Shown here: positions 14,155 to 64,000 of the stretch, in pieces
Layout of the letters: every line of letters starts with the position of its first letter
Position numbering within the stretch: the stretch's first letter is position 1
Assembly: GCA_029582265.1 (NCBI GenBank)
Contig: CM055830.1
Coordinates: 36,264,718-36,328,717 of the forward strand
Direction of reading: 5' to 3'
Source: Zoroaster sp. YZ-2022
Taxonomy: Eukaryota > Echinodermata > Asteroidea > Forcipulatida > Zoroasteridae
DNA length: 64,000 nt
Notes under the pieces: generated by a model
Databases searched by the model: none
Told to the model about the DNA's origin: nothing
The model's input: the letters and a program-made list of their open reading frames with translations, nothing else
Made by a program: the position numbers and the translations under genes

Positions 14155-16254
14155 ACACCTGTTCACAACGACTGAATCTCAATTAAAATATTGACATGTC
14201 AGTGCAAATATCTTTGTTTATTTAAATCATCTATTGTTATTTACACATTTAGAAACACAAGAAGCATAACCAAAAAAAAGAAGACAGTACTTGTATTTTA
14301 TATATAAATTACTTGTATATCATATAGAGATGCTAATCCTGACCTTGATAACAGAACAGTAAACCTAGTCTGAATTTACTGATCTCAGTCTTGAACTTAC
14401 TGACCCTGTTCTTATACATACTGGGTTGCCTGGCGCAGTGACCCACACATTCCCCGTGACCCTAAATTCAATTTTAAAATGAAAGCCTAACAACAAACAA
14501 ACGGAAATAATAAGGGAATAAAGGTTTGTCGGGCGGTCTTTACCGAAGGATAATGGGTGATTTTAGGCGTGGTCATGGGTGATTTTGGGCGTGGTCACGG
14601 TTGATACAGGTCGTTAACCTGCGATAAAGACCAAACGTCAAACTGTTTAGTCCCATTCATAAATGCTTTATCGATTTCGTTTTCAAAGTGTCAACAAATT
14701 GTAATATAATTATGTTGAATATAAAAATGGGCAAATTCACATGTTGAGGACACACGAAATACTTTAGTATTTTAGTCGGCGTAATACCAAACAATCTTTG
14801 TCACGCTGTTGCTTCAAGTCCGCACTGTGCATCGCACGCCGGCTAAATAAAACAGCTGGCGAACAGCTGGCACGTACCATCGACAACATACGCCCTGTTC
14901 TGATTTTGATAAGCGATGATTTACCATCTGTTAATACATGCACCCCTACCAGTGATTACGTTTTGTCCAATCAGATTGTCTTATCACCCGACGTAAGATT
15001 TCCATCAATCTACAGATTGTCTGAACTGTCTTGGGCATTTATGAATAAGGTTTCATTCCCAATGCGCCCAATGCGCCCAATGCGCCCACCCTCCGTGTTT
15101 TCTGTATTCAACAGCCGATGTTCGGTTTGACGCAATCTATCGAAAAACTTTATAGGTCACCGTTAGGGTGGCGCTGTACCCATTTTTCAGTCATTTTCCT
15201 CATTTTTGGTCAACAAATAATATTTTTCCAATAACTTCCTTTATTTTTTTGTCCGTTGGCCATGACATTTTTGGAACCGGATACCCGAAATCAGGAAACT
15301 TCGGTTACCCGGATACCCGTTTTCATTTTTGTTAAAAACATGCCTCCGGTGGTGTACAAATTCATGTACTGTAAATGGTAACAAATTGACTTTTACAATA
15401 CAGAGGATACCATACTTCAATCGATCTTTTCTTTATTGGAGTGCAATCTCTTTAATTTAAAAGATAATTGTTCGTAAAAGTGTAAACATGACATTGTTCA
15501 AGGGTCACAGTTTTTTTTAAGTCTGAATTTTTAAAAGTCGTTTACGGTAATTGGAACCGAAAAATGCAACCGGGTAATGATCAGCCATTGGGTATCCGGA
15601 TACCCGGATACCCGGCACAGCCCACAATAAAGGCAGATATAATAACATCCATGGTATTACTGATGACATAAATTTATACATTGAGCAAAAATTAATTGAA
15701 CAAAACTTAAAAATCAGGTTTTTGAGACAAAATATAAGTTATTGCATTTAAACGTAATGGCGGCCATATTGGATTCCCAGAATGCATTGAAAGTGGTCAC
15801 AGGACTCAATGTCCAGTTCAGAGTTTAAAAGTTGACAACAAACACAAAAACCCATATTGAATATTTAACAGTATCAAAAATCTAGTATTTTTTAACAAAA
15901 AGTGGAAATTCAATTGGACCTGTTCAAAATAAACGGTTGCCATTATCATTGATTTTTGCGTGAGGGAGTGTCCCAAAGAATAGTTAGGAAAAGTCAGAAA
16001 ATTTCAGTGTGATCGGATGAAGCGTTCTGGAGATATTATAAAAAATGTCATGGGGTGGAACATTGTTCCCCCCCCCCCCCAGGCTTGATAGGGTTAACCC
16101 AATCCTGCCTCTGCCCCCTGCCCACCCCCATGATGAACATTTTGCACAATGATTGTTACCTCATTGATTAGGCATATAATGGATTTGAAAAACTTGACAA
16201 AAACTCAAAAACTGTACAATAAGCAGATACAAAGTTCTTTCGTTTCACGCTAGA
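14155..16254. repeat. Segmental duplication, copy A
   Basis: 14158-15060 and 16085-16254 align with 16977-17876 at high identity, with runs such as 'tgttcacaacgactgaatct' and 'gatgaacattttgcacaatg'. Between the two homologous blocks, copy A carries about 1 kb (15061-16084) absent from copy B. That extra kilobase includes a dispersed repeat (15280-15620) and a C-run at about 16070-16081. Confidence 0.8.
15280..15620. mobile_element. Dispersed repeat with gggtatccggatacc motif
   Basis: A second copy lies at 63360-63570. They share 'ctttattggagtg.aatctc', gtaaaagtgtaaacat.acattgttcaa, 'tggaaccgaaaaatg.aacc' and tatccggata palindromes. Class unknown, no coding capacity. Confidence 0.6.
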
Positions 16255-16975: not shown

Positions 16976-17876
16976 CACCTGTTCACAACGACTGAATCTA
17001 AATTAAAATATTGACATATTGACAGTGCAAATATCTTTGTTTATTTAAATCATCCATTGTTATTTTACACACTTAGAAACACAAGAAGCATGACAAAAAA
17101 AGAAGACAGTACTTGTGTTTTATATATAAATTACTTGTATATCATATAGAGATGCTAATCCTGACCTTCATAACAGCACAGTAAACCTCGTCTGAATTTA
17201 CTGATCTCAGTCTCGAGACGAGTTGAGCTTACTGACCCTGCTCTTATACATACTGGGATGCCTGGCGCAGTGACCCATACATTCACCGTGACCCCAAATT
17301 CAAATTTAAGATGAAAACCCAACAAAAAACAAACGGAAATAATAAGGGAATAGAGGTTTGTCGGGCGGTCTTTACCGAAGGATAATGGGTGATTTTGGGC
17401 ATGGTCATGGGCGATAAGGACCGTGCGGAAGCTGATGTCCTTATCGCTCGTGACCCACGCACAAAACAAGTCATTAACCTGCCGTAAAGACAAAGCGTCA
17501 AATTGAAATTGTTCATTCCATTCATAAAAATTAATGACTGTATAGATTTCGATAGAAATTGTAATTTATGTTGAATCATGGTTGAATATAGCTCAATAGA
17601 AATGGGCAAATTCACATGTTGAGGACACAACATTTCCATCAATCTACAGATTGTCTGAACTGTCTTTGGAATTTACGAATAAGGTTTAATTCCATTGGAG
17701 TGTTGCTGAAGAGCACCTCTTAACCCAATCCCTGGCCCTGCCCACCCCCACCCCCATGATGAACATTTTACCTCAGCACATTGATTGTTACCTCATTGAT
17801 TAGGCATATAATGGATTTGAAAAACTTGACAAAAACTGTACAATAAGCAGATACAAAGTTTGTTCGTTTCACGCTA
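16976..17876. repeat. Segmental duplication, copy B
   Basis: Homologous to 14158-15060 plus 16085-16254. Homology with copy A stops sharply after ttcgtttcacgctag (17876 here, 16253 in copy A). Sequence beyond this point has the composition of the viral element, so this is a useful marker for its left edge. Confidence 0.8.
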
Positions 17877-18118
17877 GTAGTATGTCAGATGGGGGTTCTA
17901 GCGCATGTACTTAAAAAATCATTTTTTTAAATGATTTTCAAAAAGTGGTTGTGGTTGCGTCGTCATAAAAAGATGATGACGTCGCACTAATAAGCATGAA
18001 ATGTGTTTTACGCGTATTAGTAGTAGAGTTTAAAAAAAATATTATCTAAAAAGTAAGTTTAAAAAATGAGAAATCAAAATGAGAAAAACAAAAAATATTA
18101 TCTCGTTCAATAGTAAAG

Positions 18119-18436
18119 ATGAGTATGAATACTACCTTGAGAAGAGGAAAAGTAGTTCCTTGCGAATGGCTTTTAGTTGGCAAAACGGTCAAGTGTTGTA
18201 TACTTAGCTCACCTAATGCGGTATATTGTGGCTTACATAAATGGAAACTTAGTTGTGGAAAAAGTATACCCGTTGCGTGTCGTAGATGTAAAGTTGGTAC
18301 AAAATCAACGATATGTTTGTGTACGAAATGCGCAAAGATATTAAATGTAGCAAGTTACAAGCGAGCGAGAGGAAAAGCTATACGCTCGTTCAATAGCGTG
18401 ATGAACGAGTTGCTAGAGACAACTATACGTTTATAG
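18119..18436 (+). CDS. Small zinc-ribbon-like protein
   Basis: An intact 105-residue basic protein. It contains a C-x(n)-CC...YCGLH pattern (residues about 19-42) followed by ACRRC and CLCTKC (about residues 58-78), ten or more cysteines that could hold two zinc ions. The C-terminus is helical and basic. It is the first gene from the left edge of the viral element and points right while the next genes point left. Small zinc-binding proteins of viruses often bind nucleic acid or regulate late transcription, but no specific family is recognised. The start at 18119 is preceded by the AT-rich leader usual for this element; an in-frame ATG two codons further on is an alternative. Confidence 0.65.
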   Translation: MSMNTTLRRGKVVPCEWLLVGKTVKCCILSSPNAVYCGLHKWKLSCGKSIPVACRRCKVGTKSTICLCTKCAKILNVASYKRARGKAIRSFNSVMNELLETTIRL

Positions 18437-18568
18437 CGACTTGTATTAAAAATTAAAATTGCGGCGTTTACATCGCTGGGGCGTACGGGGGAGGTCTACA
18501 CGTTTTTACTCGCTCCGCTACTCGCGAAGCGGGTTTTTGATTATAATACAATTTATGTACGGTTAACT
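18437..18568. terminator. Convergent gap with GC hairpin
   Basis: Between the convergent genes at 18436 and 18569 lies cgctccgctactcgcgaagcgg (about 18510-18532) followed by tttttg, a stem-loop plus T-run. It is placed where a transcription end signal would be expected for both genes. Function is inferred only from position and shape. Confidence 0.3.
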
Positions 18569-19183
18569 TTACTTTAAACTTAAAAGTTTTTCTATAAGAA
18601 TTTTTCTTTCTGCATTTAAGTTTTCATCGACGGGTTTGTCGATCGTTTTAGGTTAAGCCATATCTTTAACCGGTTTATTACGGATTTTTTCTTTCATCGC
18701 ATAGTACTTTTCTCGCTCTTTAATGATTAAATTAAATTCTTCTTGGCTTATAACATTATCTTCAATCGCTTTTGAAACGAGACTATCGATGGTGTTGAGT
18801 TTACTTGGCTAAAACTCGTATCTCATCATGTTTTTTAGCTTTTTAGATAATTTATTTTTTACGTATGAGAGCAAGCGCCGAGACGCCCAACCCAAAAGCT
18901 AAACCTTCTAAACCAAACCCTACGGGGGCCGCTACAACGCTGGCGATACTCGCGGTTCCGACGGCCCCTGCTCCCATACAATCCAATTCAGCGAGAGTTT
19001 CTACGATACTACAAGCGTTAATGATTCTATTATATTTTTATAGACGGTTTTACGATGATTTATTTCGATTAGTAATTCTTTTTGAACATCGTCGATTTTT
19101 TGCAATTGAAATGATTTAGCATCATCCGTCATAACCGGTAAATTTGGATAAAGCACATTCGTTGATTCTATAGGCACGCTCAT
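18569..19183 (-). pseudogene. Membrane/helical virion-type protein, broken
   Basis: Read from the ATG at 19183, the N-terminal part carries LPVMTDDAKSFQLQKIDDVQ and a helical stretch ending HRKTVYKNIIESL. The frame changes near 19000. The second part is glycine/alanine-rich and hydrophobic (membrane-like, about 18885-19000), then a soluble helical domain containing SLVSKAIEDN and a YYAMKEKIRNK segment. Besides the frameshift there are in-frame stops near 18810 (TAG) and near 18653 (TAA). The frame finally ends at 18569. The layout (helix, glycine-rich membrane hairpin, EF-hand-like helical tail) matches uncharacterised proteins I recall from similar elements in cnidarian and mollusc genomes; that recollection is not checked. 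Confidence 0.6.
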
Positions 19184-19225
19184 TGTTTTTATTAATAGAA
19201 AAAAGATTAAAAAAATTTAAACTTT

Positions 19226-19694
19226 TTAATCTAGCGGCCAAGTAACAAATTTTATCTCGTAACAGATTCCAGTATCTAGAGTGCCAAATTTTTTTAGATT
19301 TACGTATAGTTTGATATTATGGTCGCCAATATTTTTAACGCAGCATAATTTACATTCTAAATATTGTGGTTCATTCGTAAAATAAAATTTGTCTCCTTTG
19401 GGGAAATATAAAAACATTGGTACACCAGCATTTTCACTTTTAACTACGGTATAAGTATCTTCACTACTATTCTTTTTAGCATATATATGAATATGAGGTA
19501 ATATCATCGATGAAAAAATGTAATTGATTTGAATTGCTAGTCCAATTTAATTTAAATCCACTACCTATAGGAAAAATAAATAAATCTCGTGAAAGTTGAC
19601 TCGGTGTAAGGTGTCCAACGTTTTCAATGGTGGTTGAATTGGATTTTTGACTACTCTTGTCGCTCGTTCGACTAGGTCCGTAAATACTCGCCAT
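19226..19694 (-). pseudogene. MASIYGPSRTS protein, frameshifted paralogue
   Basis: The start at 19694 gives MASIYGPSRTS, the same 11 residues that begin the neighbouring gene at 20217. One frame runs to 19476; the homologous remainder continues in another frame to 19226, so a single frameshift near 19500 splits it. The second part contains FYFTNEPQYLECKLCCVKN and ends near the same point as the neighbour's C-terminal domain, so these are tandem paralogues. A TATACTATAAATATG box abuts the start. A structural role such as a spike or minor capsid protein is only a guess. Confidence 0.6.
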
Positions 19695-19716
19695 ATTTAT
19701 AGTATAAAATTAAAAT

Positions 19717-20217
19717 TTAATTTAACGCTAAAGTTTTATTTTTTATATTGAAGCAGATTTTAGAATTTAGCGCGCCGAAAAAGGTTGCTTCTACAAAAAC
19801 TTTTTGAACGCCTCGCATTTTAAAACACATTTCGTATCTTAAATGCGACATTGCATCATCGATAAAATAAAATGTATTATTATTTAGCGTTGGAGAAGGA
19901 ATATAATAAACGTCAACTTCATAACCGCGCGTCGTTGAAAACGAAGTAAAAACATTAGCTTTTATAAAATGTACAAAAAGACTGCAGTACGACGGCGCTA
20001 CGTTAAACATGAAAAAGGGTAGTTTACTCATAGCCCACCATCCGAGTTCGACGTTGTATTTTTCGACTAGAGGTACCGTTTGTAAAATTTCATCTCTATT
20101 GATGTATCCGAAATGTTCATAAATTTCGCTAGGCGATGTTCTTACAATTTCGTTTCTAGCGTAGTCGGCAGCAACAACAGCACCGCTCGTTCGACTAGGT
20201 CCGTAAATACTCGCCAT
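19717..20217 (-). CDS. MASIYGPSRTS protein, intact paralogue
   Basis: An intact 166-residue protein. After the shared MASIYGPSRTS start comes a region with EIYEHFGYINRDEILQTVP, then beta-rich sequence with FYFIDDAMSHLRYEMCFKM near the C-terminus, aligned by eye with the downstream paralogue. It is followed after 22 bases by that paralogue and lies 4 bases downstream of the stop of the gene starting at 20899, so the three form one leftward cluster. The start is supported by the conserved N-terminus in the paralogue and by an upstream TATATAAATAAATG. No family was recognised. The conserved short N-terminus could be a sorting, cleavage or capsid-binding signal. Confidence 0.7.
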   Translation of the reverse strand: MASIYGPSRTSGAVVAADYARNEIVRTSPSEIYEHFGYINRDEILQTVPLVEKYNVELGWWAMSKLPFFMFNVAPSYCSLFVHFIKANVFTSFSTTRGYEVDVYYIPSPTLNNNTFYFIDDAMSHLRYEMCFKMRGVQKVFVEATFFGALNSKICFNIKNKTLALN

Positions 20218-20221
20218 TTAT

Positions 20222-20899
20222 TTATATAATTTCAAGATTTAAAATAACGGGGAAACCGTGATTATTTATGTCTTTACCCTTTGAATCTTTAATTTGAAAG
20301 CTCAACGCGTTAAAAGTACCGACTTTTAATTTTTTCATTAATGGATTTTTATATTCCATCCACATACTTGATCCAAACGATTTACCTTGCAAAGGAAAAG
20401 CGTTTAAAATGGTACAAGGTTTACCGTTAAAATAATTATCGGTTGTAGAAATTTGATCGCAATGAATGTATAACATTTTAAAAAGTTGTACGTCAATCTT
20501 TTTATTATATTCTCCCGTAGTTAGAAATTCATTGTGAAGCCCGAGTAAATTAGCTAACCCAGATGTAAATTTAACAGATTTGTTTGGTTGAGTTAAATTT
20601 AGCAAAATGACGCCCGTTGTTTTATCAATCGTAAACGTTATCCAAGGCGTATATTTTACTATAATATCGATAATTTCGTTAATGTTGTAAAGCCCCCCTT
20701 CAACAAACTTTACAACATCTGGCTCACCCGTTGTACGATAGATTATTCTTTCTTTTTTACGCACGTTGTAATACCCTACCCAAATGTTTGCGCTATGTAA
20801 TATAATCGCGAGATTATTATTATTACGATTATCGATAACGTCGTTTAATTGAATCAACCCACCATTTCTTTCAATTTCGATTTCAAAGGTATGATACAT
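20222..20899 (-). CDS. Candidate minor capsid or penton-like protein
   Basis: An intact 225-residue protein rich in beta-strand-type sequence. Seen features are NIWVGYYNVRKKERIIYRT, a 'FVEGGLYNINEIIDIIVKY' segment, FTSGLANLLGLHNEF in the middle, QLFKMLYIHCDQI, and a C-terminus of the type KNPLMKKL...FQIKDSKGKDI. I recall this overall pattern from uncharacterised proteins in cnidarian, insect and other invertebrate assemblies that lie next to capsid genes. A single jelly-roll (penton-type) fold is inferred from length and strand pattern, not shown. It diverges from the gene at 20936 across only 36 bases of AT-rich DNA. Confidence 0.6.
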   Translation of the reverse strand: MYHTFEIEIERNGGLIQLNDVIDNRNNNNLAIILHSANIWVGYYNVRKKERIIYRTTGEPDVVKFVEGGLYNINEIIDIIVKYTPWITFTIDKTTGVILLNLTQPNKSVKFTSGLANLLGLHNEFLTTGEYNKKIDVQLFKMLYIHCDQISTTDNYFNGKPCTILNAFPLQGKSFGSSMWMEYKNPLMKKLKVGTFNALSFQIKDSKGKDINNHGFPVILNLEII

Positions 20900-20935
20900 T
20901 TTATTATTTAAAGTTTATAATTTTATTATAGTAAA
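20900..20935. promoter_or_regulatory. 36-bp divergent promoter
   Basis: The whole gap between the divergent starts at 20899 (-) and 20936 (+) is A/T except three bases. It reads TTTATTATTTAAAG toward the left gene and ATTTTATTATAGTAAAATG toward the right one. Transcription of both genes must start within it or inside the genes, so leaders must be extremely short. Confidence 0.5.
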
Positions 20936-22321
20936 ATGACGTTTCCATTAGCGTTCAAGAGTAATTCTACATTTTCTTATAAACAATCTGGAAATTTTAA
21001 AGCTCTTCTGAATTTTAACGCTAGCGATTTAACGAGTCTAAAAATTTACGTCAACAAAACAGAGTTTTTTAACGCGCAATTCGATAATGTTTTTAGCAAC
21101 TACAAGTTACCTCACGTTGATAGCGATAACGTCGTTGATGATTGGAATTCAAATCCGCTAAAATGTTATCAAAATCAAATAAATTTTACAACGTATTGCG
21201 CTACAACGAGATGCGGCGTGAGTTATCAACATTTAAATCATACGAATATGATGATTCGTAGTTTTTTTTGATTTCACGTATATTATCAAATTCGACGATT
21301 GCTAAAAGAAATGAGCTGTCCTACGTCTTTTCAAAATTATTTTAGCGCGTTCGAAAACAATATAGACGTCAGCGCGTATAAAAGACTATGTAAAGACTTT
21401 CACCTTTCGCAAGTTTCCAATTGGAAACAACGAGTTGATTTAAATTCAAACGGATTAGGAACTGCTTATTATTACGATAACGGCTACAAACCTGTGCCTG
21501 GAAACGACTACGATAAAAGTAGTTTGAACGTCATCTCTACCGAGGTGAGTGATTACGATTATTACAAAACTGCGACGAGAATGAGTTTTGGAGATCATCC
21601 CTCAACCTATACGATCGGATACATTTTACAATCTCCATCTACGGAGCTCGCTTGAACAAAATTTATAATCAGTGACTCTAGAGGTGTTACGGATGTCGGT
21701 ACACAACGCATAAACGACTCTATAAGAACCTACGTTTACGCGATTTTGGGAGCTCAAGCGCGAGTTAAAAGTGGATTTCTAGCGCCTGGCGTTGGTTTAG
21801 ACGCTCAGCGTGAATTTATAAATATAGTAAATGCCGAGATTGATTCGCCGGTCGATTTAACATCTAGTATTCAACGATATCAAGATCTTTTACAATACGC
21901 TCGTACTCAATTAAACTTTTGTATCGGAGAAAATTTATACATGATGCCGAGCGATATGAATTTACGAATAAGCACGTACGCGGGTTACAACAATAATATA
22001 TTAATCGCGACGAGTGAATTCTCGTTGGGTTCAAATTTAGATACAAATTCAACGCCCGTTGTTCCTCCTATTTTACCTTTACAATCACCATCGTTGATCG
22101 CCAAGCACGCTGACTCTGACGAGAAGCGCGATAGCGAAGACAGCCATACTGAAGCTGCGCAAGAATCTTTTTCTACAACAATACAAAACTCTTTTAAAGA
22201 TACGATAAAAGAAGACCCTTTAGAAGACAGCGATAACCACGAAGAAGAAAAAAATGCTTTAATTATTGGTTTTGCGGTTTTAACCGGACTCGGCGTTATA
22301 ATTTACGAATTGGTATTTTAG
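20936..22321 (+). pseudogene. Large membrane-anchored virion-type protein, two in-frame TGA
   Basis: One + strand frame stays open from 20936 to 22321 except for TGA at 21269 and 21653. It starts MTFPLAFKSNSTFSYKQSG, contains aromatic-rich, beta-type sequence (TAYYYDNGYKPVPGNDYD), then an acidic low-complexity stretch (EDSHTEAAQES...EEEK), and ends in a hydrophobic helix, ALIIGFAVLTGLGVIIYEL. A tail-anchored or single-pass membrane protein of about 460 residues fits, possibly a surface protein. Both interruptions are TGA and the frame is otherwise intact. Loss by point mutation (CGA or TGG to TGA) is the simple explanation. Family unknown. Confidence 0.6.
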
Positions 22322-22687
22322 AGTTTTCTGCGCGTAAGTTAAAATTAAAACACCAACCCCCGTCAAAGCTAGCCATAAATGTTCCGCCGCATACGATACT
22401 ACTTTTGAAGCTGTTTTAAATAACCAATTTATTACTGATCCGATAATAACCGGTAAAGCGGCTAAAGCTTTTGCTCCTAGTTTAGCTAATACATTCGCTA
22501 GATTTTTTAATGTTTTTTGTATCCACTCTTTTACACCACCGCTAGGTGTTGGTTTAGGTGTTGGTGTGGGTTTTGGGGGTATAGGTTTGGGTGTGGGTTC
22601 TGGTGGTATAGGTTTAGGTGGTATAGGTTTTGGTATAACTGAATTTACAGCACCAACCATCGATTCAACGATAACAGCGACGGTCAT
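22280..22687 (-). CDS. Proline-rich membrane protein
   Basis: An intact 135-residue protein: an N-terminal hydrophobic segment (MTVAVIVESMVGAVNSV), a proline repeat (KPIPPKPIPPEPTPKPIPP, residues about 20-48), then GGVKEWIQKTLKNLANVLAK, an amphipathic/hydrophobic run (ALAALPVIIGSVINWLF), and a final hydrophobic helix (LWLALTGVGVLILTY). The pattern GGVKEW...LAKLG.KALAALP..IGS..NWL is one I recall from similar elements in cnidarians. A membrane-active role is inferred from the helices. Its 3' end overlaps the convergent gene ending at 22321 by 42 bases. Confidence 0.65.
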   Translation of the reverse strand: MTVAVIVESMVGAVNSVIPKPIPPKPIPPEPTPKPIPPKPTPTPKPTPSGGVKEWIQKTLKNLANVLAKLGAKALAALPVIIGSVINWLFKTASKVVSYAAEHLWLALTGVGVLILTYAQKTLKYQFVNYNAESG

Positions 22688-22741
22688 ACTAAAAGCCGTT
22701 AATATACTAACGATCGTTATACCTTGTTCTCTAAATAAAGT

Positions 22742-23122
22742 TTAAATTTTTTCTCCTAACGTAACGTCTCTTTCTAACATTTTTTGAAACGTTTCTTTAA
22801 TTCTACTGATTTGACTACGAAGATTGAGCTCATTTTCACTCGCGGCTTCTAATCTCAATCGTCTTTCTTCTTGTTTATCTCGCAGTTGTTTACTAGTTTT
22901 TTCAGTTAATTCATTAAATCCACGCTGTTTACCGTCAAAAATTTATTCTTGTAGATTAGAAATTTCTTTGTCAACTTGGCTCAATGTGGCTAAATTTAAT
23001 TCAAGATGGCCTCTAGTCGTTTGTAAGGAACTATTGAGCCCCGAGATTTCTCGCCATGGAATGTCCAATTCTGTTGGAATGTTTAATTTTGTTTGAATTT
23101 CTTTATCTCTCTTGAGAGTCAT
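22742..23122 (-). pseudogene. Coiled-coil protein with one in-frame stop
   Basis: From an ATG at 23122, which overlaps the end of the upstream gene by 20 bases, the frame runs 126 codons to TAA at 22742, with a single TAA at 22943 in the middle. The sequence before and after is charged and heptad-like: LELNLATLSQVDKEISNLQE before the stop, and a KQLRDKQEERRLRLEASENE stretch after it. It is therefore best read as one coiled-coil gene interrupted by one mutation. Neither half appears as a long open frame, so it is easily missed. The overlap (atgactctcaagagagataa) suggests coupled or overlapping translation with the 23103-23666 gene. Confidence 0.55.
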
Positions 23123-23666
23123 AACGCCATTTCGACAGCTTCTTCCACTTTTTTTTAGATTTTTCTACCTGTTGCATCGGTATAGGTGGTAACCTTCTAC
23201 CACTACTTGTTTTAGCGGCTGGCTCTTCCACCGGTTTTTCCGCTTCTTTTATAACATCGTTTATAGCTTTTTTACTATATTTACCAAATGGTAATAAATC
23301 ATATGAATTTAAACCGCTTATACCGCTTAACTTCAAAAAGGTACCCTCTTTTCCTTTTCCTAGATTCGTTAGTCGTATTTCTTTACCACCTTTTATAAAA
23401 TAGAGTATACTTCTATCTTTTTCATCTAATTTCTCTATAAACTTATTATAGTCTTTAAAAGCGTTTTCATGGCCTATACTTGCATAAAAATCATTAACTG
23501 TTGTTCTAAGTGCTATAGATTTTAAAGATAAATCTTTTTCAGTTGGAAGATTACCCAAGTTGATAATTTCATCATCTCCATCAAACATATCATCTACGTT
23601 TACATCATCTTCAGGGTGATTATACGCTGGGTCCATCGGTAAAAGATCATAACCTCCTTTTGCCAT
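23103..23666 (-). CDS. Acidic N-terminus, basic C-terminus protein
   Basis: An intact 187-residue protein. Residues 1-40 are acidic (HPEDDVNVDDMFDGDDEII). The middle holds a compact region with KDYNKFIEKLDEKDRSILYF and a SGISGLNSYDLLPFGKYSKK segment. The end is basic (VEKSKKKWKKLSKWRY). Opposite charge at the two ends suggests a scaffold or genome-associated virion protein, but this is a guess. It starts 44 bases after the annotated stop of the gene at 23711, directly behind a TTATAAAATGG box, and its 3' end overlaps the coiled-coil gene by 20 bases. Confidence 0.65.
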   Translation of the reverse strand: MAKGGYDLLPMDPAYNHPEDDVNVDDMFDGDDEIINLGNLPTEKDLSLKSIALRTTVNDFYASIGHENAFKDYNKFIEKLDEKDRSILYFIKGGKEIRLTNLGKGKEGTFLKLSGISGLNSYDLLPFGKYSKKAINDVIKEAEKPVEEPAAKTSSGRRLPPIPMQQVEKSKKKWKKLSKWRYDSQER

Positions 23667-23710
23667 TTTATAATTACTTTTTATCTTTTTTCAACAATTT
23701 ATAACTCGCG

Positions 23711-24085
23711 TTACCTACAACGCGTTTTTTGATCTTGGCTAGGAACGTAAAAATCTTTTAGTTGCGGTTCGTCGTATAAATCTTGCGGTAAATTTATTCG
23801 TTTGTTCGTAACTCGCGAATATTCATTCATCGCTTCGTCAATGTTGTCGAACGTTCTTACGGCGCTCGATTCTTTTTGTATTTTCTCGTTCAAATAATCT
23901 AGATATTTTAAACGCTTTTTACTAAATTCGTCTCTAGCTTTCGAAAGTTGTTCTAACGCTAAATCATGCCTTTTGCGTTCTTGTTCGGCGTCGTTACTTC
24001 GTAAACTGCTAAATAAAAAATTGCTACCGGTAAATGCTAACGCGTTGACTATTGCGCCTCCAATCATCATCGCTATAGATACCAT
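23711..24085 (-). CDS. N-terminal membrane hairpin plus coiled-coil protein
   Basis: A 124-residue protein. MVSIAMMIGGAIVNALAFTG is hydrophobic and could insert in a membrane. It is followed by a charged coiled-coil region (EQERKRHDLALEQLSKARDE) and a C-terminal part with TFDNIDEAMNEYSRVTNKRI and LKDFYVPSQDQK. The frame stops at 23711 after an A-run (aaaaaa at about 23727). A different frame stays open from the A-run to 23674, right before the next gene, so the real C-terminus may have been lost through a one-base slip in that run. I recall similar proteins from invertebrate elements of this type. It diverges from the capsid gene at 24130. Confidence 0.6.
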   Translation of the reverse strand: MVSIAMMIGGAIVNALAFTGSNFLFSSLRSNDAEQERKRHDLALEQLSKARDEFSKKRLKYLDYLNEKIQKESSAVRTFDNIDEAMNEYSRVTNKRINLPQDLYDEPQLKDFYVPSQDQKTRCR

Positions 24086-24129
24086 TTTATTTATAATTTT
24101 TAAAAAATTATATTTAACGAGTATAAAAT
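24086..24129. promoter_or_regulatory. 44-bp divergent promoter of capsid gene
   Basis: An AT-rich gap between divergent starts. The right half, attatatttaacgagtataaaatATG, is nearly repeated at 27575-27600. The left half reads ATTATAAATAAAATG toward the other gene. The TATAAAAT box ends only one base before or at the capsid start codon. Confidence 0.6.
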
Positions 24130-25409
24130 ATGGCTAATAATACGTACGGAGATGCGCTCGATCCATACAGAAGAATAAGAGAAACTCGAGGTATAAAAGG
24201 ACTGCGACAAAAAGTTGTCATTACAAACAATCCGAGTACCATTACCGAAAATCAATTGTTGACAGTTCGTTTTCCAAATTTAGGAATGAACGACGTTATC
24301 GTTCCAAATACCGCTAGATTAGCTTTTAATATACAACTTGTTTGTACGGATGATGATACTCGAACGTTGGTACAAAACATTGGTAGAGCGATCGTAAAAC
24401 ATATAATTATTAAAATGGAAGGAAATGAAATATTTTCATTAGACGATGCGGATGTTTTCAATTGTTATAAAGACGAATGGTTAACACTTAGATCAACGCG
24501 ATAATTTAACGTATCAAGGAATCGAAACTGTAAACGTAACTAAATTTAGAATAAACGCTAGCGATAAGGTTCCCGCGGGTAACGGAGGAAAAGATAAAGC
24601 TATCGCGGATACGTATAAAAATAGATATTACATTCCGCTTGATTTTGAATTGTTGACCGATCATCAGCCCTACTACCAATCGGGGATCGGAGATCGATTG
24701 ACTTACGAACTCGTGTTTAATAAATTTTCGAGCGTGATTAAAAACACCGACGATAATGCGAAATATACTATAAGCGGGATTTCTTTAGAATTTGAAGTCG
24801 TTCATATGCCGGAACTCGCTCGAACGATTACAAATCAATACAGTAACCGGTTGAGTATATTGTTTGATCGCGTACTAAGACAGAGCGTAACGCCGTTAAA
24901 CAAAAAAGACACGACGTGGAATATAAATTTAAATACCCCCGCAAAAAGTATGAAAGGAATATTGTTTTTATTCAAAGAACCCAACGTGCAAGAAAGCAAC
25001 AAGTTTTATAAATCCAAAAATCGATAAAGTTTCAATTACCATCGAAGGCGTTCCTAATCAACTCTACGCGCACGGAATGCAAAGGTATCAACATTGGGAA
25101 GAGATTTCTAAATATTTCGGTGATTCGAAACAACAACACGCTATTCGAATCGTTAAAGCTTTAAATTTATCCAACGTTAAACAAGCCGATTATTTACTAA
25201 ATCGATACGGTTTATTTATAGATTTGAGAACTAGCGCCGATAGTAAATTACACGGAAGCGGAAGACGACTACAAAACTTATCCGAAGGAATTACCATTCA
25301 AATTGATAAAGAAGCGGAAGCCGCGGGTGAACTAAACATGTATACATTTATTATTATGGACGCGCAACTCGTTATAAGAAATGGGCGTTTTGAATCCGTC
25401 GATTATTAA
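24130..25409 (+). pseudogene. Candidate double-jelly-roll major capsid protein, two frameshifts
   Basis: Three consecutive open frames (24130-24504, 24650-25027, 25077-25409) form one protein of about 425 residues split by frameshifts near 24490 and near 25015. Seen motifs are RFPNLGMNDVIVPNTARLAF, NIGRAIVKHIIIKMEGNEIF and DDADVFNCYKDEW in the first part; YTISGISLEFEVVHMPELAR in the second; and LFIDLRTSADSKLHGSGRRL plus YTFIIMDAQLVIRNGRFES in the third. Length, beta-rich pattern and position directly before the packaging ATPase fit the major capsid protein of polinton-like viruses. I recall this family in cnidarian, mollusc and placozoan assemblies as uncharacterised proteins. The capsid call is an inference from context and pattern; a structure prediction would decide it. 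Confidence 0.6.
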
Positions 25410-25427
25410 CGCCTAATATTAAAAGGG

Positions 25428-26006
25428 ATGTTACCTAAATATCCACACGCCGCGTTAATTTGCGGTCAAACCGGATGCGGAAAAACTGAATTTATTTAAA
25501 ATTTATTAGAAAAAGAATATTTTAAACATTTTGAAAATATCGTTATATTATGCCCCACCATCTTTGACAACGATACTTATAAAAATAGAAAATGGATTCA
25601 AAACGATGGTAATGTACACGTTGACGAGTTAAACAATATTTCGTTAAACCGAGCTATACAAATGTATAGCGATATATTTAAAAGAGAGGAAACGTTGTTT
25701 ATTATCGATGATTGTAGCGCGAATAAAGGATTACATTATAAAAAATACGACCGGAATAATAAATGTATGATTACCCAATTGGCTTTTAGAGGTAGACACG
25801 TTAAACATAGTTTTAGAGAGCAACTCAAATGGGTGTGTTTATTTTATTGTAAAGATAGAGACTCGTTTGAGAATTGTCTTCGAGAAAATGATGTTATACC
25901 GACGGCCGAGTTACGAGAGCGAGTGCGTGAGAAATTAAAACGAGCTAAACATCGCAAATTGATTTTAAAAACGGATCAACCTACCGGTTATGCGATACTC
26001 GACTAA
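25428..26006 (+). pseudogene. A32/FtsK-HerA-like genome packaging ATPase, one in-frame stop
   Basis: Starting at ATG 25428, 18 bases after the capsid gene stop, the frame encodes a 192-residue P-loop ATPase interrupted by a single TAA at 25497. The Walker A motif is GQTGCGKTE (residues 13-21), immediately before the stop. The Walker B motif is TLFIIDDCS (about residues 84-92), preceded by a beta strand with IVILCPTIFDN. Downstream, QLAFRGRHVKHSF fits the sensor/arginine region of viral DNA-packaging ATPases. Such enzymes pump DNA into the capsid. Length is at the short end for the family. Because the stop follows the P-loop, no functional enzyme is expected without readthrough. Confidence 0.7.
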
Positions 26007-26019
26007 GTTGTTGTCGGTG

Positions 26020-26305
26020 TAGTACAATTACCTATAGGTCGTTGGTAGTTACTAGTAGGTTAGTTGGTAATTACCTATAGGTAGTTGGTAGTTACTAGTA
26101 GGTTAGTTGGTAATTACCTATAGGTCGTTGGTAGTTACTAGTAGGTTAGTTGGTAATTACCTATAGGTAGTTCGTAGTTACTAGTAGGTTAGTTGGTAAT
26201 TACCTATAGGTCGTTGGTAGTTACTAGTAGGTTAGTTGGTAATTACCTATAGGTAGTTGGTAATTACCTATAGGTAGTTGGTAGTTACTAGTAGGTTAGT
26301 GTTTT
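26020..26305. repeat. 43-bp tandem repeat with tacctataggta palindrome
   Basis: Six to seven units read ggt(c/a)gttggtagttactag, taggttagttggtaattacctata, with period 43. Alternating units differ mainly at one base (ggtcg/ggtag), giving a higher-order 86-bp pattern. Each unit holds tacctataggta, a perfect 12-bp palindrome, and actagt. It lies between the packaging ATPase and the rightward small genes. Confidence 0.9.
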
Positions 26306-26340
26306 TTATTTTTTAAATATCATAGGATATATATATAAAT
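26306..26340 (+). promoter_or_regulatory. TATA-type leader of small gene
   Basis: aggatatatatataaatATGG directly abuts the start at 26341, the same start-proximal TATA layout as the other genes of the element. Confidence 0.45.
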
Positions 26341-26499
26341 ATGGATACTGAAAAAATAAACAATTTGGTATATAATCTTACGCAACTTTTAACTACCGAA
26401 AAAGGAAAATGTTTACTAGTTTTTCTTTTGTTCTATATCGATGATGAACAATTTATAAAAGAACTAGTTTTATTTTCAAACGATGTTAAATTAAAATAA
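26341..26499 (+). CDS. Small hypothetical protein
   Basis: A 52-residue frame starting MDTEKINNLVYNLTQLLTTE and continuing through a hydrophobic segment (CLLVFLLFYIDD) to FIKELVLFSNDVKLK. A TATA box abuts the start. The stretch taaaagaactagttttattt at its end is repeated at about 26507-26530 (taaaagaactcgttttattt), where a second frame encodes KELVLFLNDNK and runs to about 26600. The gene may therefore have been partly duplicated or elongated and then broken. Not recognised. Confidence 0.45.
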   Translation: MDTEKINNLVYNLTQLLTTEKGKCLLVFLLFYIDDEQFIKELVLFSNDVKLK

Positions 26500-26606
26500 A
26501 ACTAGCTATAAAAGAACTCGTTTTATTTTTAAATGATAATAAAATGTACAAGTTGTTGGCTTTTTTTGAAAAATTAAAAAATATAATAAAAGCTGTTTAA
26601 TAATAA

Positions 26607-27216
26607 ATGGAAGAAGTTGCTAAACTATTGTCAGAAAATCCACCCGTGTCAAGTTTGCCGTCTACCGATAGTAATATAAACGACGACGCGCTACTATTAA
26701 AGCAAAAACTACGAGATAAACGACTTTTGGCGGTTGTGTCGGGAGGAGATTCCAAACAAATTTCGGTAAAGAGTATTGTATCAACGATATTGAAGCACTG
26801 AGTACGGAAGAGCGAGATGTATTACTCACGCAATACGAAACTAAATTAGGTCGTGATATAACGCAGTCTTTAGGTAGCGCCATTCTAACGCTATACGCTA
26901 AACTATTAGGATTTAGTTTAAATCGTATTGATTTATACGGTCATCAATTTCAAATTGACGATGAAGGTAAATTAATTTCGGATTTAGAAAAAGATCCATT
27001 CATTTTAGCATGCTTTCTACCGTAGCGTGTGAAATATACTACAAGTACGGAATGTTGATCGCGCCGCTCAGTGCAACGCTAATTACGGCAAAACATTTAA
27101 AAAGAAAAGAAGAATCTTGTATAGATAATAAAAGCGATGGAGACGAACGAGTTGGAGAATACGCAAACGCAACCGCAAGCTGTAAAAACGCCGTCGACTG
27201 TAACGAAACCGACTAA
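26607..27216 (+). pseudogene. Helical virion-type protein, two frameshifts
   Basis: The first frame starts at 26607 (MEEVAKLLSENPPVSSLPST) and covers a disordered, charged N-terminus. Around 26785 the homologous sequence moves to another frame containing LLTQYETKLGRDITQSLGSA and a FSLNRIDLYGHQFQIDDE segment. Around 27010 it moves again, to the part beginning MLSTVACEIYYKYGMLIAPL and ending at 27216. The three parts line up in order with a family I recall from cnidarian elements (a helical domain, then CELYYRYGM..APL). Two indels have destroyed it here. Function unknown; a virion component is likely from context. Confidence 0.55.
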
Positions 27217-27558
27217 AAAAGAAAAATCCCAAACAGAGTCGCGGCTGGGAAAAAACTCGCCGAACTTAATAAAAAGAAAAAAATACAACTCGCTAAAGAC
27301 GCGAGTAAAACTCGTTACACGACGGTGCAAGAGTCAACGAGTTACGTTCAAAAAGAAGAAAACAACTCGTCAAACTACTACTATTATATCGCTATTGGTT
27401 TAGCCGTTGGAGGTCTCGTTTATTTCCTTTTTAGTGAAAAAGGGCCAGCATCGATAAACGAACCGGTAAAACCCGCGCAAGCGCCACCTTTATCAAAACC
27501 AACGAGCTACGCCGCGCAAGCGCCAACGAGACAACAACATGTTTTTGAAATGGAATAA
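27137..27558 (+). pseudogene. Basic, single-pass membrane protein, frameshifted
   Basis: The start at 27137 overlaps the end of the previous gene by 80 bases. The first frame gives METNELENTQTQPQAVKTPS with a lysine-rich follow-up. Near 27230 the better continuation is in another frame, which carries RVAAGKKLAELNKKKKIQL and reaches the intact C-terminal part (27325-27558). That part has a tyrosine-rich patch, a membrane helix (YIAIGLAVGGLVYFLF) and a proline-rich tail. One frameshift therefore separates the basic N-terminus from the membrane anchor. A packaging or membrane role is plausible but unproved. Confidence 0.5.
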
Positions 27559-27570
27559 AAGTATTTTTTT

Positions 27571-27600
27571 TAAATAATTATATTGACGAGTATAAAATAT
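27571..27600 (+). promoter_or_regulatory. Second copy of the capsid-type promoter
   Basis: aataattatattgacgagtataaaatATG matches the capsid gene leader at 24104-24129 over about 25 bases, with identical acgagtataaaatATG. It suggests both genes belong to the same expression class. Confidence 0.6.
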
Positions 27601-27666
27601 GATGGATACGAAAACATTGGGTGACGCATACATTATGAACATACGTGCTGCTTTAATGGTTTGATT
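27601..27666 (+). pseudogene. Truncated first codons of a viral gene
   Basis: ATGATGGATACG opens 21 codons (MMDTKTLGDAYIMNIRAAL...) and then stops. It is preceded by the duplicated capsid-type promoter. The initial part, D-(K)-TLGDAYIMNIRAAL, looks like the opening of a real gene whose body is missing, replaced by host repeat from about 27670. This marks the likely right break of the element. Confidence 0.4.
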
Positions 27667-27689
27667 TGGTGTTTTATTTGCCGACTGAA

Positions 27690-27805
27690 TATATAGATAA
27701 TTGGCATAAGTGGACCGCCCACCAACATAGGGGCTGGTTAGCTCAGTTGGTAGAGCGCTCGTACGGTAATCGAGAGGTCGCGGGTTAGAGTCCGGCATCA
27801 GCCAA
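27690..27805 (+). mobile_element. tRNA-like SINE head
   Basis: GGCTGGTTAGCTCAGTTGGTAGAGC (about 27731) has a canonical A box and D arm. The acceptor ends pair (GGCTGGT with ATCAGCC), and a T-run follows at 27805. The anticodon stem has one mismatch, the T arm does not pair well and the B box is altered (GGTTAGAGTCC), so this is a tRNA-derived repeat, not a working tRNA. The preceding 40 bases, attggcataagtggaccgcc, recur at 28020-28062. Confidence 0.6.
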
Positions 27806-28557
27806 TTTTTCTTTGCTCGCTACCCGTTTATAATATTTCAGGTCAGTTTATCCATATAAATCTACTTTGTGTACAACCACATAAAAGGCTTGTGTCCCGT
27901 TAATTGTGTGATCCACGCTACTGCCGTTACCCGGGTTGTTTGCATCTGACCGGGGCTTGATCCCTGGCTACTTGGCAGATATGGTTTGGCCTCTGACCTG
28001 GCCCCATAGAGCAATAGATGATTGGCATAAGTGGACCGCCCACCAACATAGGGGCTGGTAGTCTATTTCGTCACTTTATAGACTTTCTGCACAGTGATTG
28101 GCAAACTACAAAATCAAAACGGCGTTGTCAAAAATATGAAATAAAATATTTTTTGTTTTTAACATTATCATTATCCAATATTGTCGATTACATGTGCTAA
28201 GTCAATGACAGGAAATGAAATCACAAACATGCATGTACGATAAGACCATAGATGGTAAGGCGTTACATTGTGCTTGTACATTTACAATAGGCCTACATAC
28301 ACGTTCTCCCGCTGGGTCGCACAAAGGTATACCGCGGTGGAGCATGAGTGCGACGAATACGTGCACGGCGAGAGGTCGTCTGCTGACGCGGTCGATAGTG
28401 CATGGTACTGAAAATTAGCAAAGCACCATTCTCCACATGTACAATCTTTGTTCGTCTGAAAAGTAATGTATGACTTTGATTGAATCTGTCTTCATATGTT
28501 GAGCACAGCGTTAACATAAATAAAGAACAAATGTAAACATGTATAAGAATAATGACC
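27806..28557. other. Repeat debris, no gene seen
   Basis: A second copy of the attggcataagtggaccgcc segment lies at 28020-28062. No coding region supported. Confidence 0.4.
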
Positions 28558-33284: not shown

Positions 33285-33580
33285 GCGCGCTTACCCCTGC
33301 TCATTAGGCTCATAAATCATTCCCGAAACCATCTCAGCTCCCTGGGGAGTATAAAGCTCAATTGCTGCCATTTCAGCGCATATAGGGCTAATCAAACACA
33401 ACAACCAACTCTGCCCTCACAGGTACAACATTTACTCCTGGGTGGAGAGAAGCAATTATGGTAATGTGTCTTGCTCAAGGACACAAGTACCACGGTCGCA
33501 GTTGGGATTCGAACCCACATTCTGACGACTCAGCCATCAGAACACAAATCCGATGCACTAAACCGCTCGACCATGGCAAT
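33285..33580 (-). mobile_element. tRNA-derived SINE, minus orientation
   Basis: On the complement it carries an A box (TGGTCGAGCGG near 33575), a B box (gggttcgaatccc near 33505), gtgtccttgagcaagacaca and the ccaggagt...acctgtgagggcagagttg body shared with the copy at 381-655. Its 5' head (33548-33580) is also the first part of the 99-bp array unit that follows. Confidence 0.8.
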
Positions 33581-36500
33581 CCAGGACATTGATCATGAAG
33601 AATCATGTTAATTGGAAGCTACATCATTGGTATATGGAACCTTACATCCGATGCACTAAACCGCTCGACCATGGCAATCCAGGACATTGATCATGAAGAA
33701 TCATGTTAATTGGAAGCTACATCATTGGTATATGGAACCTTACATCCGATGCACTAAACCGCTCGACCATGGCAATCCAGGACATTGATCATGAAGAATC
33801 ATGTTAAATGGAAGCTACATCATTGGTATATGGAACCTTACATCCGATGCACTAAACCGCTCGACCATGGCAATCCAGGACATTGATCATGAAGAATCAT
33901 GTTAATTGGAAGCTACATCATTGGTATATGGAACCTTACATCCGATGCACTAAACCGCTCGACCATGGCAATCCAGGACATTGATCATGAAGAATCATGT
34001 TAATTGGAAGCTACATCATTGGTATATGGAACCTTACATCCGATGCACTAAACCGCTCGACCATGGCAATCCAGGACATTGATCATGAAGAATCATGTTA
34101 ATTGGAAACTACATCATTGGTATATGGAACCTTACATCCGATGCACTAAACCGCTCGACCATGGCAATCCAGGACATTGATCATGAAGAATCATGTTAAT
34201 TGGAAACTACATCATTGGTATATGGAACCTTACATCCGATGCACTAAACCGCTCGACCATGGCAATCCAGGACATTGATCATGAAGAATCATGTTAATTG
34301 GAAGCTACATCATTGGTATATGGAACCTTACATCCGATGCACTAAACCGCTCGACCATGGCAATCCAGGACATTGATCATGAAGAATCATGTTAATTGGA
34401 AGCTACATCATTGGTATATGGAACCTTACATCCGATGCACTAAACCGCTCGACCATGGCAATCCAGGACATTGATCATGAAGAATCATGTTAATTGGAAG
34501 CTACATCATTGGTATATGGAACCTTACATCCGATGCACTAAACCGCTCGACCATGGCAATCCAGGACATTGATCATGAAGAATCATGTTAATTGGAAGCT
34601 ACATCATTGGTATATGGAACCTTACATCCGATGCACTAAACCGCTCGACCATGGCAATCACGGACATTGATCATGAAGAATCATGTTAATTGGAAGCTAC
34701 ATCATTGGTATATGGAACCTTACATCCGATGCACTAAACCGCTCGACCATGGCAATCCAGGACATTGATCATGAAGAATCATGTTAATTGGAAGCTACAT
34801 CATTGGTATATGGAACCTTACATCCGATGCACTAAACCGCTCGACCATGGCAATCCAGGACATTGATCATGAAGAATCATGTTAATTGGAAGCTACATCA
34901 TTGGTATATGGAACCTTACATCCGATGCACTAAACCGCTCGACCATGGCAATCCAGGACATTGATCATGAAGAATCATGTTAATTGGAAGCTACATCATT
35001 GGTATATGGAACCTTACATCCGATGCACTAAACCGCTCGACCATGGCAATCCAGGACATTGATCATGAAGAATCATGTTAATTGGAAGCTACATCATTGG
35101 TATATGGAACCTTACATCCGATGCACTAAACCGCTCGACCATGGCAATCCAGGACATTGATCATGAAGAATCATGTTAATTGGAAGCTACATCATTGGTA
35201 TATGGAACCTTACATCCGATGCACTAAACCGCTCGACCATGGCAATCCAGGACATTGATCATGAAGAATCATGTTAATTGGAAGCTACATCATTGGTATA
35301 TGGAACCTTACATCCGATGCACTAAACCGCTCGACCATGGCAATCCAGGACATTGATCATGAAGAATCATGTTAATTGGAAGCTACATCATTGGTATATG
35401 GAACCTTACATCCGATGCACTAAACCGCTCGACCATGGCAATCCAGGACATTGATCATGAAGAATCATGTTAATTGGAAGCTACATCATTGGTATATGGA
35501 AACTTACATCCGATGCACTAAACCGCTCGACCATGGCAATCCAGGACATTGATCATGAAGAATCATGTTAATTGTAAGCTACATCATTGGTATATGGAAC
35601 CTTACATCCGATGCACTAAACCGCTCGACCATGGCAATCCAGGACATTGATCATGAAGAATCATGTTAATTGGAAGCTACATCATTGGTATATGGAACCT
35701 TACATCCGATGCACTAAACCGCTCGACCATGGCAATCCAGGACATTGATCATGAAGAATCATGTTAATTGGAAGCTACATCATTGGTATATGGAACCTTA
35801 CATCCGATGCACTAAACCGCTCGACCATGGCAATCCAGGACATTGATCATGAAGAATCATGTTAATTGGAAGCTACATCATTGGTATATGGAACCTTACA
35901 TCCGATGCACTAAACCGCTCGACCATGGCAATCCAGGACATTGATCATGAAGAATCATGTTAATTGGAAGCTACATCATTGGTATATGGAACCTTACATC
36001 CGATGCACTAAACCGCTCGACCATGGCAATCCAGGACATTGATCATGAAGAATCATGTTAATTGGAAGCTACATCATTGGTATATGGAACCTTACATCCG
36101 ATGCACTAAACCGCTCGACCATGGCAATCCAGGACATTGATCATGAAGAATCATGTTAATTGGAAGCTACATCATTGGTATATGGAACCTTACATCCGAT
36201 GCACTAAACCGCTCGACCATGGCAATCCAGGACATTGATCATGAAGAATCATGTTAATTGGAAGCTACATCATTGGTATATGGAACCTTACATCCGATGC
36301 ACTAAACCGCTCGACCATGGCAATCCAGGACATTGATCATGAAGAATCATGTTAATTGGAAGCTACATCATTGGTATATGGAACCTTACATCCGATGCAC
36401 TAAACCGCTCGACCATGGCAATCCAGGACATTGATCATGAAGAATCATGTTAATTGGAAGCTACATCATTGGTATATGGAACCTTACATCCGATGCACTA

Positions 36501-39500
36501 AACCGCTCGACCATGGCAATCCAGGACATTGATCATGAAGAATCATGTTAATTGGAAGCTACATCATTGGTATATGGAACCTTACATCCGATGCACTAAA
36601 CCGCTCGACCATGGCAATCCAGGACATTGATCATGAAGAATCATGTTAATTGGAAGCTACATCATTGGTATATGGAACCTTACATCCGATGCACTAAACC
36701 GCTCGACCATGGCAATCCAGGACATTGATCATGAAGAATCATGTTAATTGAAGCTACATCATTGGTATATGGAACCTTACATCCGATGCACTAAACCGCT
36801 CGACCATGGCAATCCAGGACATTGATCATGAAGAATCATGTTAATTGGAAGCTACATCATTGGTATATGGAACCTTACATCCGATGCACTAAACCGCTCG
36901 ACCATGGCAATCCAGGACATTGATCATGAAGAATCATGTTAATTGGAAGCTACATCATTGGTATATGGAACCTTACATCCGATGCACTAAACCGCTCGAC
37001 CATGGCAATCCAGGACATTGATCATGAAGAATCATGTTAATTGGAAGCTACATCATTGGTATATGGAACCTTACATCCGATGCACTAAACCGCTCGACCA
37101 TGGCAATCCAGGACATTGATCATGAAGAATCATGTTAATTGGAAGCTACATCATTGGTATATGGAACCTTACATCCGATGCACTAAACCGCTCGACCATG
37201 GCAATCCAGGACATTGATCATGAAGAATCATGTTAATTGGAAGCTACATCATTGGTATATGGAACCTTACATCCGATGCACTAAACCGCTCGACCATGGC
37301 AATCCAGGACATTGATCATGAAGAATCATGTTAATTGGAAGCTACATCATTGGTATATGGAACCTTACATCCGATGCACTAAACCGCTCGACCATGGCAA
37401 TCCAGGACATTGATCATGAAGAATCATGTTAATTGGAAGCTACATCATTGGTATATGGAACCTTACATCCGATGCACTAAACCGCTCGACCATGGCAATC
37501 CAGGACATTGATCATGAAGAATAATGGGGAGTGGTAGCTACATCATTGGTATATGGAACCTTACATCCGATGCACTAAACCGCTCGACCATGGCAATCCA
37601 GGACATTGATCATGAAGAATCATGTTAATTGGAAGCTACATCATTGGTATATGGAACCTTACATCCGATGCACTAAACCGCTCGACCATGGCAATCCAGG
37701 ACATTGATCATGAAGAATCATGTTAATTGGAAGCTACATCATTGGTATATGGAACCTTACATCCGATGCACTAAACCGCTCGACCATGGCAATCCAGGAC
37801 ATTGATCATGAAGAATCATGTTAATTGGAAGCTACATCATTGGTATATGGAACCTTACATCCGATGCACTAAACCGCTCGACCATGGCAATCCAGGACAT
37901 TGATCATGAAGAATCATGTTAATTGGAAGCTACATCATTGGTATATGGAACCTTACATCCGATGCACTAAACCGCTCGACCATGGCAATCCAGGACATTG
38001 ATCATGAAGAATCATGTTAATTGGAAGCTACATCATTGGTATATGGAACCTTACATCCGATGCACTAAACCGCTCGACCATGGCAATCCAGGACATTGAT
38101 CATGAAGAATCATGTTAATTGGAAGCTACATCATTGGTATATGGAACCTTACATCCGATGCACTAAACCGCTCGACCATGGCAATCCAGGACATTGATCA
38201 TGAAGAATCATGTTAAATGGAAGCTACATCATTGGTATATGGAACCTTACATCCGATGCACTAAACCGCTCGACCATGGCAATCCAGGACATTGATCATG
38301 AAGAATCATGTTAATTGGAAGCTACATCATTGGTATATGGAACTTACATCCGATGCACTAAACCGCTCGACCATGGCAATCAGGACATTGATCATGAAGA
38401 ATCATGTTAATTGGAAGCTACATCATTGGTATATGGAACCTTACATCCGATGCACTAAACCGCTCGACCATGGCAATCCAGGACATTGATCATGAAGAAT
38501 CATGTTAATTGGAAGCTACATCATTGGTATATGGAACCTTACATCCGATGCACTAAACCGCTCGACCATGGCAATCCAGGACATTGATCATGAAGAATCA
38601 TGTTAATTGGAAGCTACATCATTGGTATATGGAACCTTACATCCGATGCACTAAACCGCTCGACCATGGCAATCCAGGACATTGATCATGAAGAATCATG
38701 TTAATTGGAAGCTACATCATTGGTATATGGAACCTTACATCCGATGCACTAAACCGCTCGACCATGGCAATCCAGGACATTGATCATGAAGAATCATGTT
38801 AATTGGAAGCTACATCATTGGTATATGGAACCTTACATCCGATGCACTAAACCGCTCGACCATGGCAATCCAGGACATTGATCATGAAGAATCATGTTAA
38901 TTGGAAGCTACATCATTGGTATATGGAACCTTACATCCGATGCACTAAACCGCTCGACCATGGCAATCCAGGACATTGATCATGAAGAATCATGTTAATT
39001 GGAAGCTACATCATTGGTATATGGAACCTTACATCCGATGCACTAAACCGCTCGACCATGGCAATCCAGGACATTGATCATGAAGAATCATGTTAATTGG
39101 AAGCTACATCATTGGTATATGGAACCTTACATCCGATGCACTAAACCGCTCGACCATGGCAATCCAGGACATTGATCATGAAGAATCATGTTAATTGGAA
39201 GCTACATCATTGGTATATGGAACCTTACATCCGATGCACTAAACCGCTCGACCATGGCAATCCAGGACATTGATCATGAAGAATCATGTTAATTGGAAGC
39301 TACATCATTGGTATATGGAACCTTACATCCGATGCACTAAACCGCTCGACCATGGCAATCCAGGACATTGATCATGAAGAATCATGTTAATTGGAAGCTA
39401 CATCATTGGTATATGGAACCTTACATCCGATGCACTAAACCGCTCGACCATGGCAATCCAGGACATTGATCATGAAGAATCATTTAAATTGGAAGCTACA

Positions 39501-63958: not shown

Positions 63959-64000
63959 GTATGCAACAAATTTACTTTTCAAGAATGATCAGGCACATAC

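Follow-up and report, generated by a model that had tools for sequence, protein, structure and literature searches.

Polintons, also called Mavericks, are integrating double-stranded DNA viruses of animals, and their ends, capsid genes and copy numbers have been described in several reports. According to the passages cited here, vertebrate Mavericks have (AGT)2//(ACT)2 ends, 6-bp duplications and lengths of 12.7 to 24.6 kb (PMC8097293), and duplications of 5 to 6 bp are given for mavirus and the Maverick/Polinton elements as a group (PMC8547959). A 2014 study assigned the Polinton protein PY to VP54-like capsid proteins and PX to the pentons, and could identify PRO, the adenovirus-like (Ulp1-type) protease, in 74% of published Polintons (PMC4028283). 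In a network study, the capsids of cnidarian Polintons did not fall into the main cluster (PMC10120064), and Meld23486 is described as a Polinton-type polymerase and integrase joined to poxvirus-like capsid genes (PMC11071296). Mavericks are listed for all mollusc genomes of one survey (PMC10294476), and a table for the hard clam gives 7091 Maverick copies, or 1.69% (PMC8905726). Here, we analyzed a 64,000-nucleotide stretch of Zoroaster sp. YZ-2022 (G000:C15:36264718-36328717, in a 1.0-Gb assembly of 616 contigs), hereafter the window, in which a compact set of open reading frames (ORFs) lies on both strands from 17876 to about 27620. We are confident that this interval is a dead, right-truncated and pseudogenized copy of a high-copy Polinton/Maverick. 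This copy is an ordinary representative of an established kind of element, not a new virus type.

The ORFs of the interval were compared with ORFs of at least 80 amino acids (aa) from 22 fetched loci (numbered with L). Relatives at E ≤ 1e-6 were found for 20 of the 21 ORF pieces. The remaining piece, a 225-aa protein at 20225-20899, had 150 scored genome matches, its own locus counted, among 3061 first-look candidates, and its copies were 75 to 91% identical, the own locus excepted. The median ratio of nonsynonymous to synonymous divergence (dN/dS) of this gene was 0.20 (190 pairs from 20 copies), in a sample of best protein matches that biases dN downwards. Because relatives occur at other loci, the ORFs are real genes of a repeated element and not chance ORFs. 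An earlier sequence-only reading had proposed the gene cluster, and would have counted the lack of any other locus with the same genes as a refutation; the cluster is confirmed, and such loci exist.

The capsid and packaging genes are both broken in the window copy, and their identities were obtained from relatives. The major capsid protein has 864 public relatives, and a weak Capsid_N match was found in 49 of 50 aligned relatives. The predicted structure of one of them, P0006, showed a double jelly-roll fold and not another fold, which confirms the capsid candidate proposed earlier at 24130-25409. L038 and L040 have 206-aa ORFs to which the open piece of the ATPase gene aligned at residues 79-206, and the L038 ORF matched Pox_A32 at E 6.6e-12, with 45.9 bits where the cut-off is 22.8. 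The packaging ATPase candidate was thus also correct, and the family carries a genome-packaging ATPase of the A32/FtsK-HerA type, as Polintons/Mavericks do. With this match and the capsid fold, the proposal of an endogenous virus of the Polinton world holds.

The 225-aa protein is probably the penton. Its structure, predicted from six sequences, had a pLDDT of 77.6 and a pTM of 0.70, and its BFVD matches included a putative MELD-virus penton, giant-virus minor capsid proteins and adomavirus LO5. In VIA-align, a PBCV-1 capsid chain scored 8.9 and the mavirus penton 8.3, adenovirus penton bases reached about 7, and picornavirus capsids and nucleophosmin 6 to 6.5; all of these scores are moderate. 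The penton identity is established in part, and the family combines a double jelly-roll major capsid protein with this putative single jelly-roll penton, as expected of a Polinton/Maverick.

The left end of the element begins with AGTAGT at 17876. A similar terminus was found in five other copies (L021, L022, L023, L027, and L028) with differing sequence outside; in L023 the terminus was present twice with an identical flank. A 235-bp query from the left end gave 68 genome matches, many of which were inner parts short of the terminus and several of which lay as inverted pairs. The length of the inverted repeat in the window copy is not measurable, because its right end is lost. Seven two-ended pairs were tested, picked by eye from the left-end matches with further possible pairs left aside. 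All seven had AGTAGT//ACTACT ends and inverted repeats that were 88 to 99% alike. A 5-bp target duplication was present in 7/7 of these pairs, compared with 0/42 mismatched left-right combinations, and a 6-bp duplication of the vertebrate Maverick type fitted none of the seven. Copies with terminal repeats, which the earlier reading had suggested looking for, are therefore present in the same genome. One two-ended copy (C4:19557803-19572328) was 14.5 kb long and held penton-type and integrase matches together; among the scored matches, C5:15399193-15420982 held a penton-type match and C4:57872965-57897107 an integrase match. The seven intervals ranged from 3.3 to about 42 kb, and this spread indicates that some two-ended copies are probably internally deleted or interrupted. 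The 3.3-kb interval (L053/L054, C22:11383397-11386652) shares these termini and has a 5-bp duplication; its inverted repeats are 97.7% alike, and it is probably a short non-autonomous member.

On the right side, seven of ten fetched flanks (L032, L033, L034, L035, L037, L038, and L039) stopped matching the window at 27601-27624. The same seven continued to match one another, mostly over 2 to 3 kb, up to or almost up to the limit of the sequence fetched. Because they continue jointly past this point, the window copy has been cut on the right. A tblastn search of the whole window with seven integrase and polymerase-like pieces from these sister copies found no such gene (best E 0.77). The absence of polymerase and integrase noted in the sequence-only reading thus stands for the window, where it results from the truncation, but not for the gene set. 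In L038, the only one of the seven flanks scanned with Pfam for integrase, the next gene past the breakpoint encodes a 341-aa integrase (PF00665, E 2.4e-8, over the cut-off). Across the genome, 118 integrase copies were scored out of 4384 candidates. The gene order proved to be fixed: in all 26 pairs of penton-type and integrase matches within 20 kb, the integrase lay on the expected side and on the opposite strand, compared with an average of 0.23 such pairs for shifted positions. Since both lists hold best-scoring matches only, 26 pairs is a lower bound.

Further right, minus-strand polymerase-like ORFs were mutually related in six of the seven flanks (L032, L034, L035, L037, L038, and L039) and in L031. 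Fourteen pieces of this polymerase-like kind from eight loci (L031, L032, L034, L035, L037, L038, L039, and L041, the last adjoining L038) were scanned, and PF03175 (DNA_pol_B_2) matched two of them (E 9e-5 and E 4e-4), neither of which reached the curated cut-off. The polymerase identity is accordingly established in part. The polymerase-like ORF at L031:4711-6330 also holds a weak Endonuclease_7 match (E 2.3e-4, under the cut-off). L041 holds, at about position 2700, a motif that resembles a right terminus in degenerate form. In the window itself, a tRNA-Thr-like sequence lies beyond the breakpoint at 27732-27804, together with a 46-bp direct repeat (27693-27738 and 28014-28059, 98%); the stretch 27693-28059 is perhaps a tRNA-derived insertion.

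Taken from these genes, a working scheme for intact relatives can be proposed. A protein-primed family-B polymerase would copy their DNA, the A32-like ATPase would package it into a shell built from double jelly-roll capsomers and single jelly-roll pentons, and the retrovirus-type integrase would insert it and leave 5-bp target duplications. The replication cycle, and the formation of virions at all, are steps that we infer. The features of the window copy are collected in Table 1.

Table 1. Features of the truncated element and its ends, in window coordinates
Feature	Position	Strand	Basis or remark
Left half of the expected 5-bp target-site duplication, host DNA	17871..17875		Adjoins terminus; 5-bp duplications there in 7/7 two-ended sister copies; right partner lost
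Left terminus 5'-AGTAGTATG and left inverted-repeat zone	17876..18110	+	Similar termini in sister copies
Small conserved ORF, 105 aa, no assigned function	18119..18436	+	Relatives in 5 loci, 45-90% identity
Row of related small ORFs: 19226-19507, 19476-19694, 19717-20217	19226..20217	-	Two start with the same peptide (repeat D12)
Probable penton (minor capsid) protein, 225 aa, open in window copy	20222..20899	-	Predicted fold and structural matches
One or two genes in pieces: 20936-21271, 21299-21655, 21746-22321	20936..22321	+	Relatives of 341-375 aa in L033, L034, L040; 362 aa in L031
Pieces of a ~464-aa protein: 22280-22687, 22943-23122, 23103-23666	22280..23666	-	All three map to the single ORF L037:7181-8572
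Conserved ORF, 124 aa	23711..24085	-	Relatives in 6 loci, 75-88% identity
Major capsid protein gene, three ORF pieces	24130..25409	+	Pieces align to residues 1-119, 174-296, 316-425 of the open 425-aa L039 ORF
Packaging ATPase gene, broken	25428..26006 (open piece 25662-26006)	+	Left limit is a reading of the sequence
43-bp tandem repeat array, 6.3 units	26026..26296		Repeated matches in L033, L034, L035, L037
Three small conserved genes: 26341-26499; 26607-27213 (two pieces); 27137-27558 (two pieces)	26341..27558	+	The relatives in sister copies measure 84 aa, at most 209 aa, and 133-153 aa
Right breakpoint	27601..27624		Sister copies carry integrase and polymerase-like genes beyond

Pfam gave no match over the cut-off for the gene or genes at 20936-22321, and single window pieces yielded nothing useful against Pfam and PHROGs. 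In sequence searches of the PDB, no convincing relative was found (best E 0.024). The 225-aa protein had no relative by tblastn in phage records or in an IMG/VR scan, and the capsid alignment had none in the IMG/VR scan; therefore, there was no named virus record for comparison. The name F54H12.2, which we take to be that of similar invertebrate proteins, gave no paper in a literature search. Records of equal size (10091 and 6359 bases) in the capsid and integrase match lists were considered as a hint of co-occurrence in other genomes, and were left unused because chance equality is likely among 120 rows each. Two relatives of the capsid and integrase proteins (P0025 and P0209) are filed under metagenome-assembled genomes of Candidatus Thiodiazotropha and Candidatus Sedimenticola endophacoides, which are clam symbionts; these records are perhaps host contamination.

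In the host surroundings, Fibrinogen_C exons lie on the plus strand 29 to 36 kb right of the element, at 56817-57215 (E 0.007, below the cut-off) and 63685-63999 (E 3e-21). They are likely the immune-type gene of the sequence-only reading, which had placed the element in an intron of that gene. Such exons were seen on the right side only, and Fibrinogen_C was not found among the five ORFs scanned left of the element, which leaves the intron placement a proposal. The positions 33548-47226 are occupied by a 98-bp satellite array (about 140 units, 99% match, 13.7 kb). Left of the element are an 86-bp tandem array (892-2844), a reverse-transcriptase fragment (3694-4026; RVT_1, E 3.6e-8) and two copies of a host repeat (16121-16253 and 17747-17877), the second of which has the element at its end. 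Window positions 17153-18454 were 98.7% identical to L055 (C1:6074400-6075700) over 1302 bp, of which about 720 bp are host DNA to the left of the element. Because the identity extends into host DNA, a segmental duplication of the locus is probable. At L056, where the right break would be expected if colinear with L055, no match was found.

Several observations weigh against the assignment to Polintons/Mavericks. Three of the ten right flanks (L031, L036, and L040) stop or rearrange before 27600, and the polymerase matches are weak, with only the two sub-threshold pieces described above. L042, the stretch to the right of L039, showed no similarity to L041, and the far right part is therefore shown for a single copy. 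An adenovirus-like protease was not found in the scanned ORFs by Pfam, nor genome-wide by PF00770, whose 14 controls also gave no match. In addition, vertebrate Mavericks have 6-bp duplications, whereas those of the Zoroaster family are 5 bp long, a length within the 5 to 6 bp given for the group (PMC8547959).

Within the Polinton/Maverick assignment, it is possible, as a tentative proposal, that the family forms a distinct invertebrate subgroup. Such a subgroup would have a short (~425-aa) giant-virus-type capsid protein and strict 5-bp duplications, would lack a maturation protease of the adenovirus type, would carry its penton gene apart from the capsid gene, and would have expanded to at least 150, perhaps thousands of, copies in the genome. 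A special form of the same assignment is a meldvirus-type chimera, in which a Polinton polymerase and integrase are combined with a capsid module nearer to poxviruses and giant viruses, as described for Meld23486 (PMC11071296). We regard this as rather unlikely. A Hydra Polinton with a VP54-like capsid protein was reported in 2014 (PMC4028283), so that a giant-virus-type capsid does not separate a chimera from Polintons; moreover, fold scores carry no phylogeny, and the comparison contained no named Polinton or meldvirus sequence.

The sequence-only reading had gone further and suggested that the gene set defines a separate animal polinton-like virus lineage, one truly lacking polymerase and integrase. 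The window indeed holds neither gene by tblastn, and no protease was seen among the scanned ORFs. However, past the window breakpoint an rve integrase and polymerase-like ORFs occur in sister copies, two-ended copies have Maverick-type termini and target duplications, and the 26 penton-integrase pairs in fixed orientation refute the proposal for this family as to integrase. A separate lineage is thus very improbable. A host gene cluster or an unrelated transposon, which would account for the multiple copies and inverted repeats general to transposons, is excluded by the capsid module (double jelly-roll fold, penton-like protein, and A32-type ATPase) and has a negligible probability.

The Polinton/Maverick assignment disposes of the claim of a new virus type, since truncation accounts for the missing genes. 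Of lasting value is an animal Polinton family that is well populated and includes two-ended copies. The family is useful for asking whether capsid maturation can dispense with an adenovirus-like protease, and how giant-virus-like capsid proteins are distributed across Polintons.

Finally, we compared the family with known systems. With Polintons/Mavericks (class Polintoviricetes; largely synonymous with adintoviruses), it shares the rve integrase, polymerase-B-like ORFs, packaging ATPase, double jelly-roll capsid and penton-like protein, as well as the AGTAGT//ACTACT termini, inverted repeats, 5-bp target duplication and a 14.5-kb two-ended copy with penton and integrase matches. It differs from them in that no adenovirus-like protease was found, in a search without a positive control, and in that the penton gene lies several genes from the capsid gene; the window copy additionally lacks the right third. 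Meldviruses such as Meld23486, compared by their description only (PMC11071296), share the Polinton-type integrase and polymerase-like genes and capsid proteins resembling those of larger DNA viruses. Polinton-like viruses share jelly-roll capsid genes, an ATPase and inverted repeats, but they are described as mostly lacking pPolB and the rve integrase in the passage cited (PMC11071308), whereas the Zoroaster family has an rve integrase.

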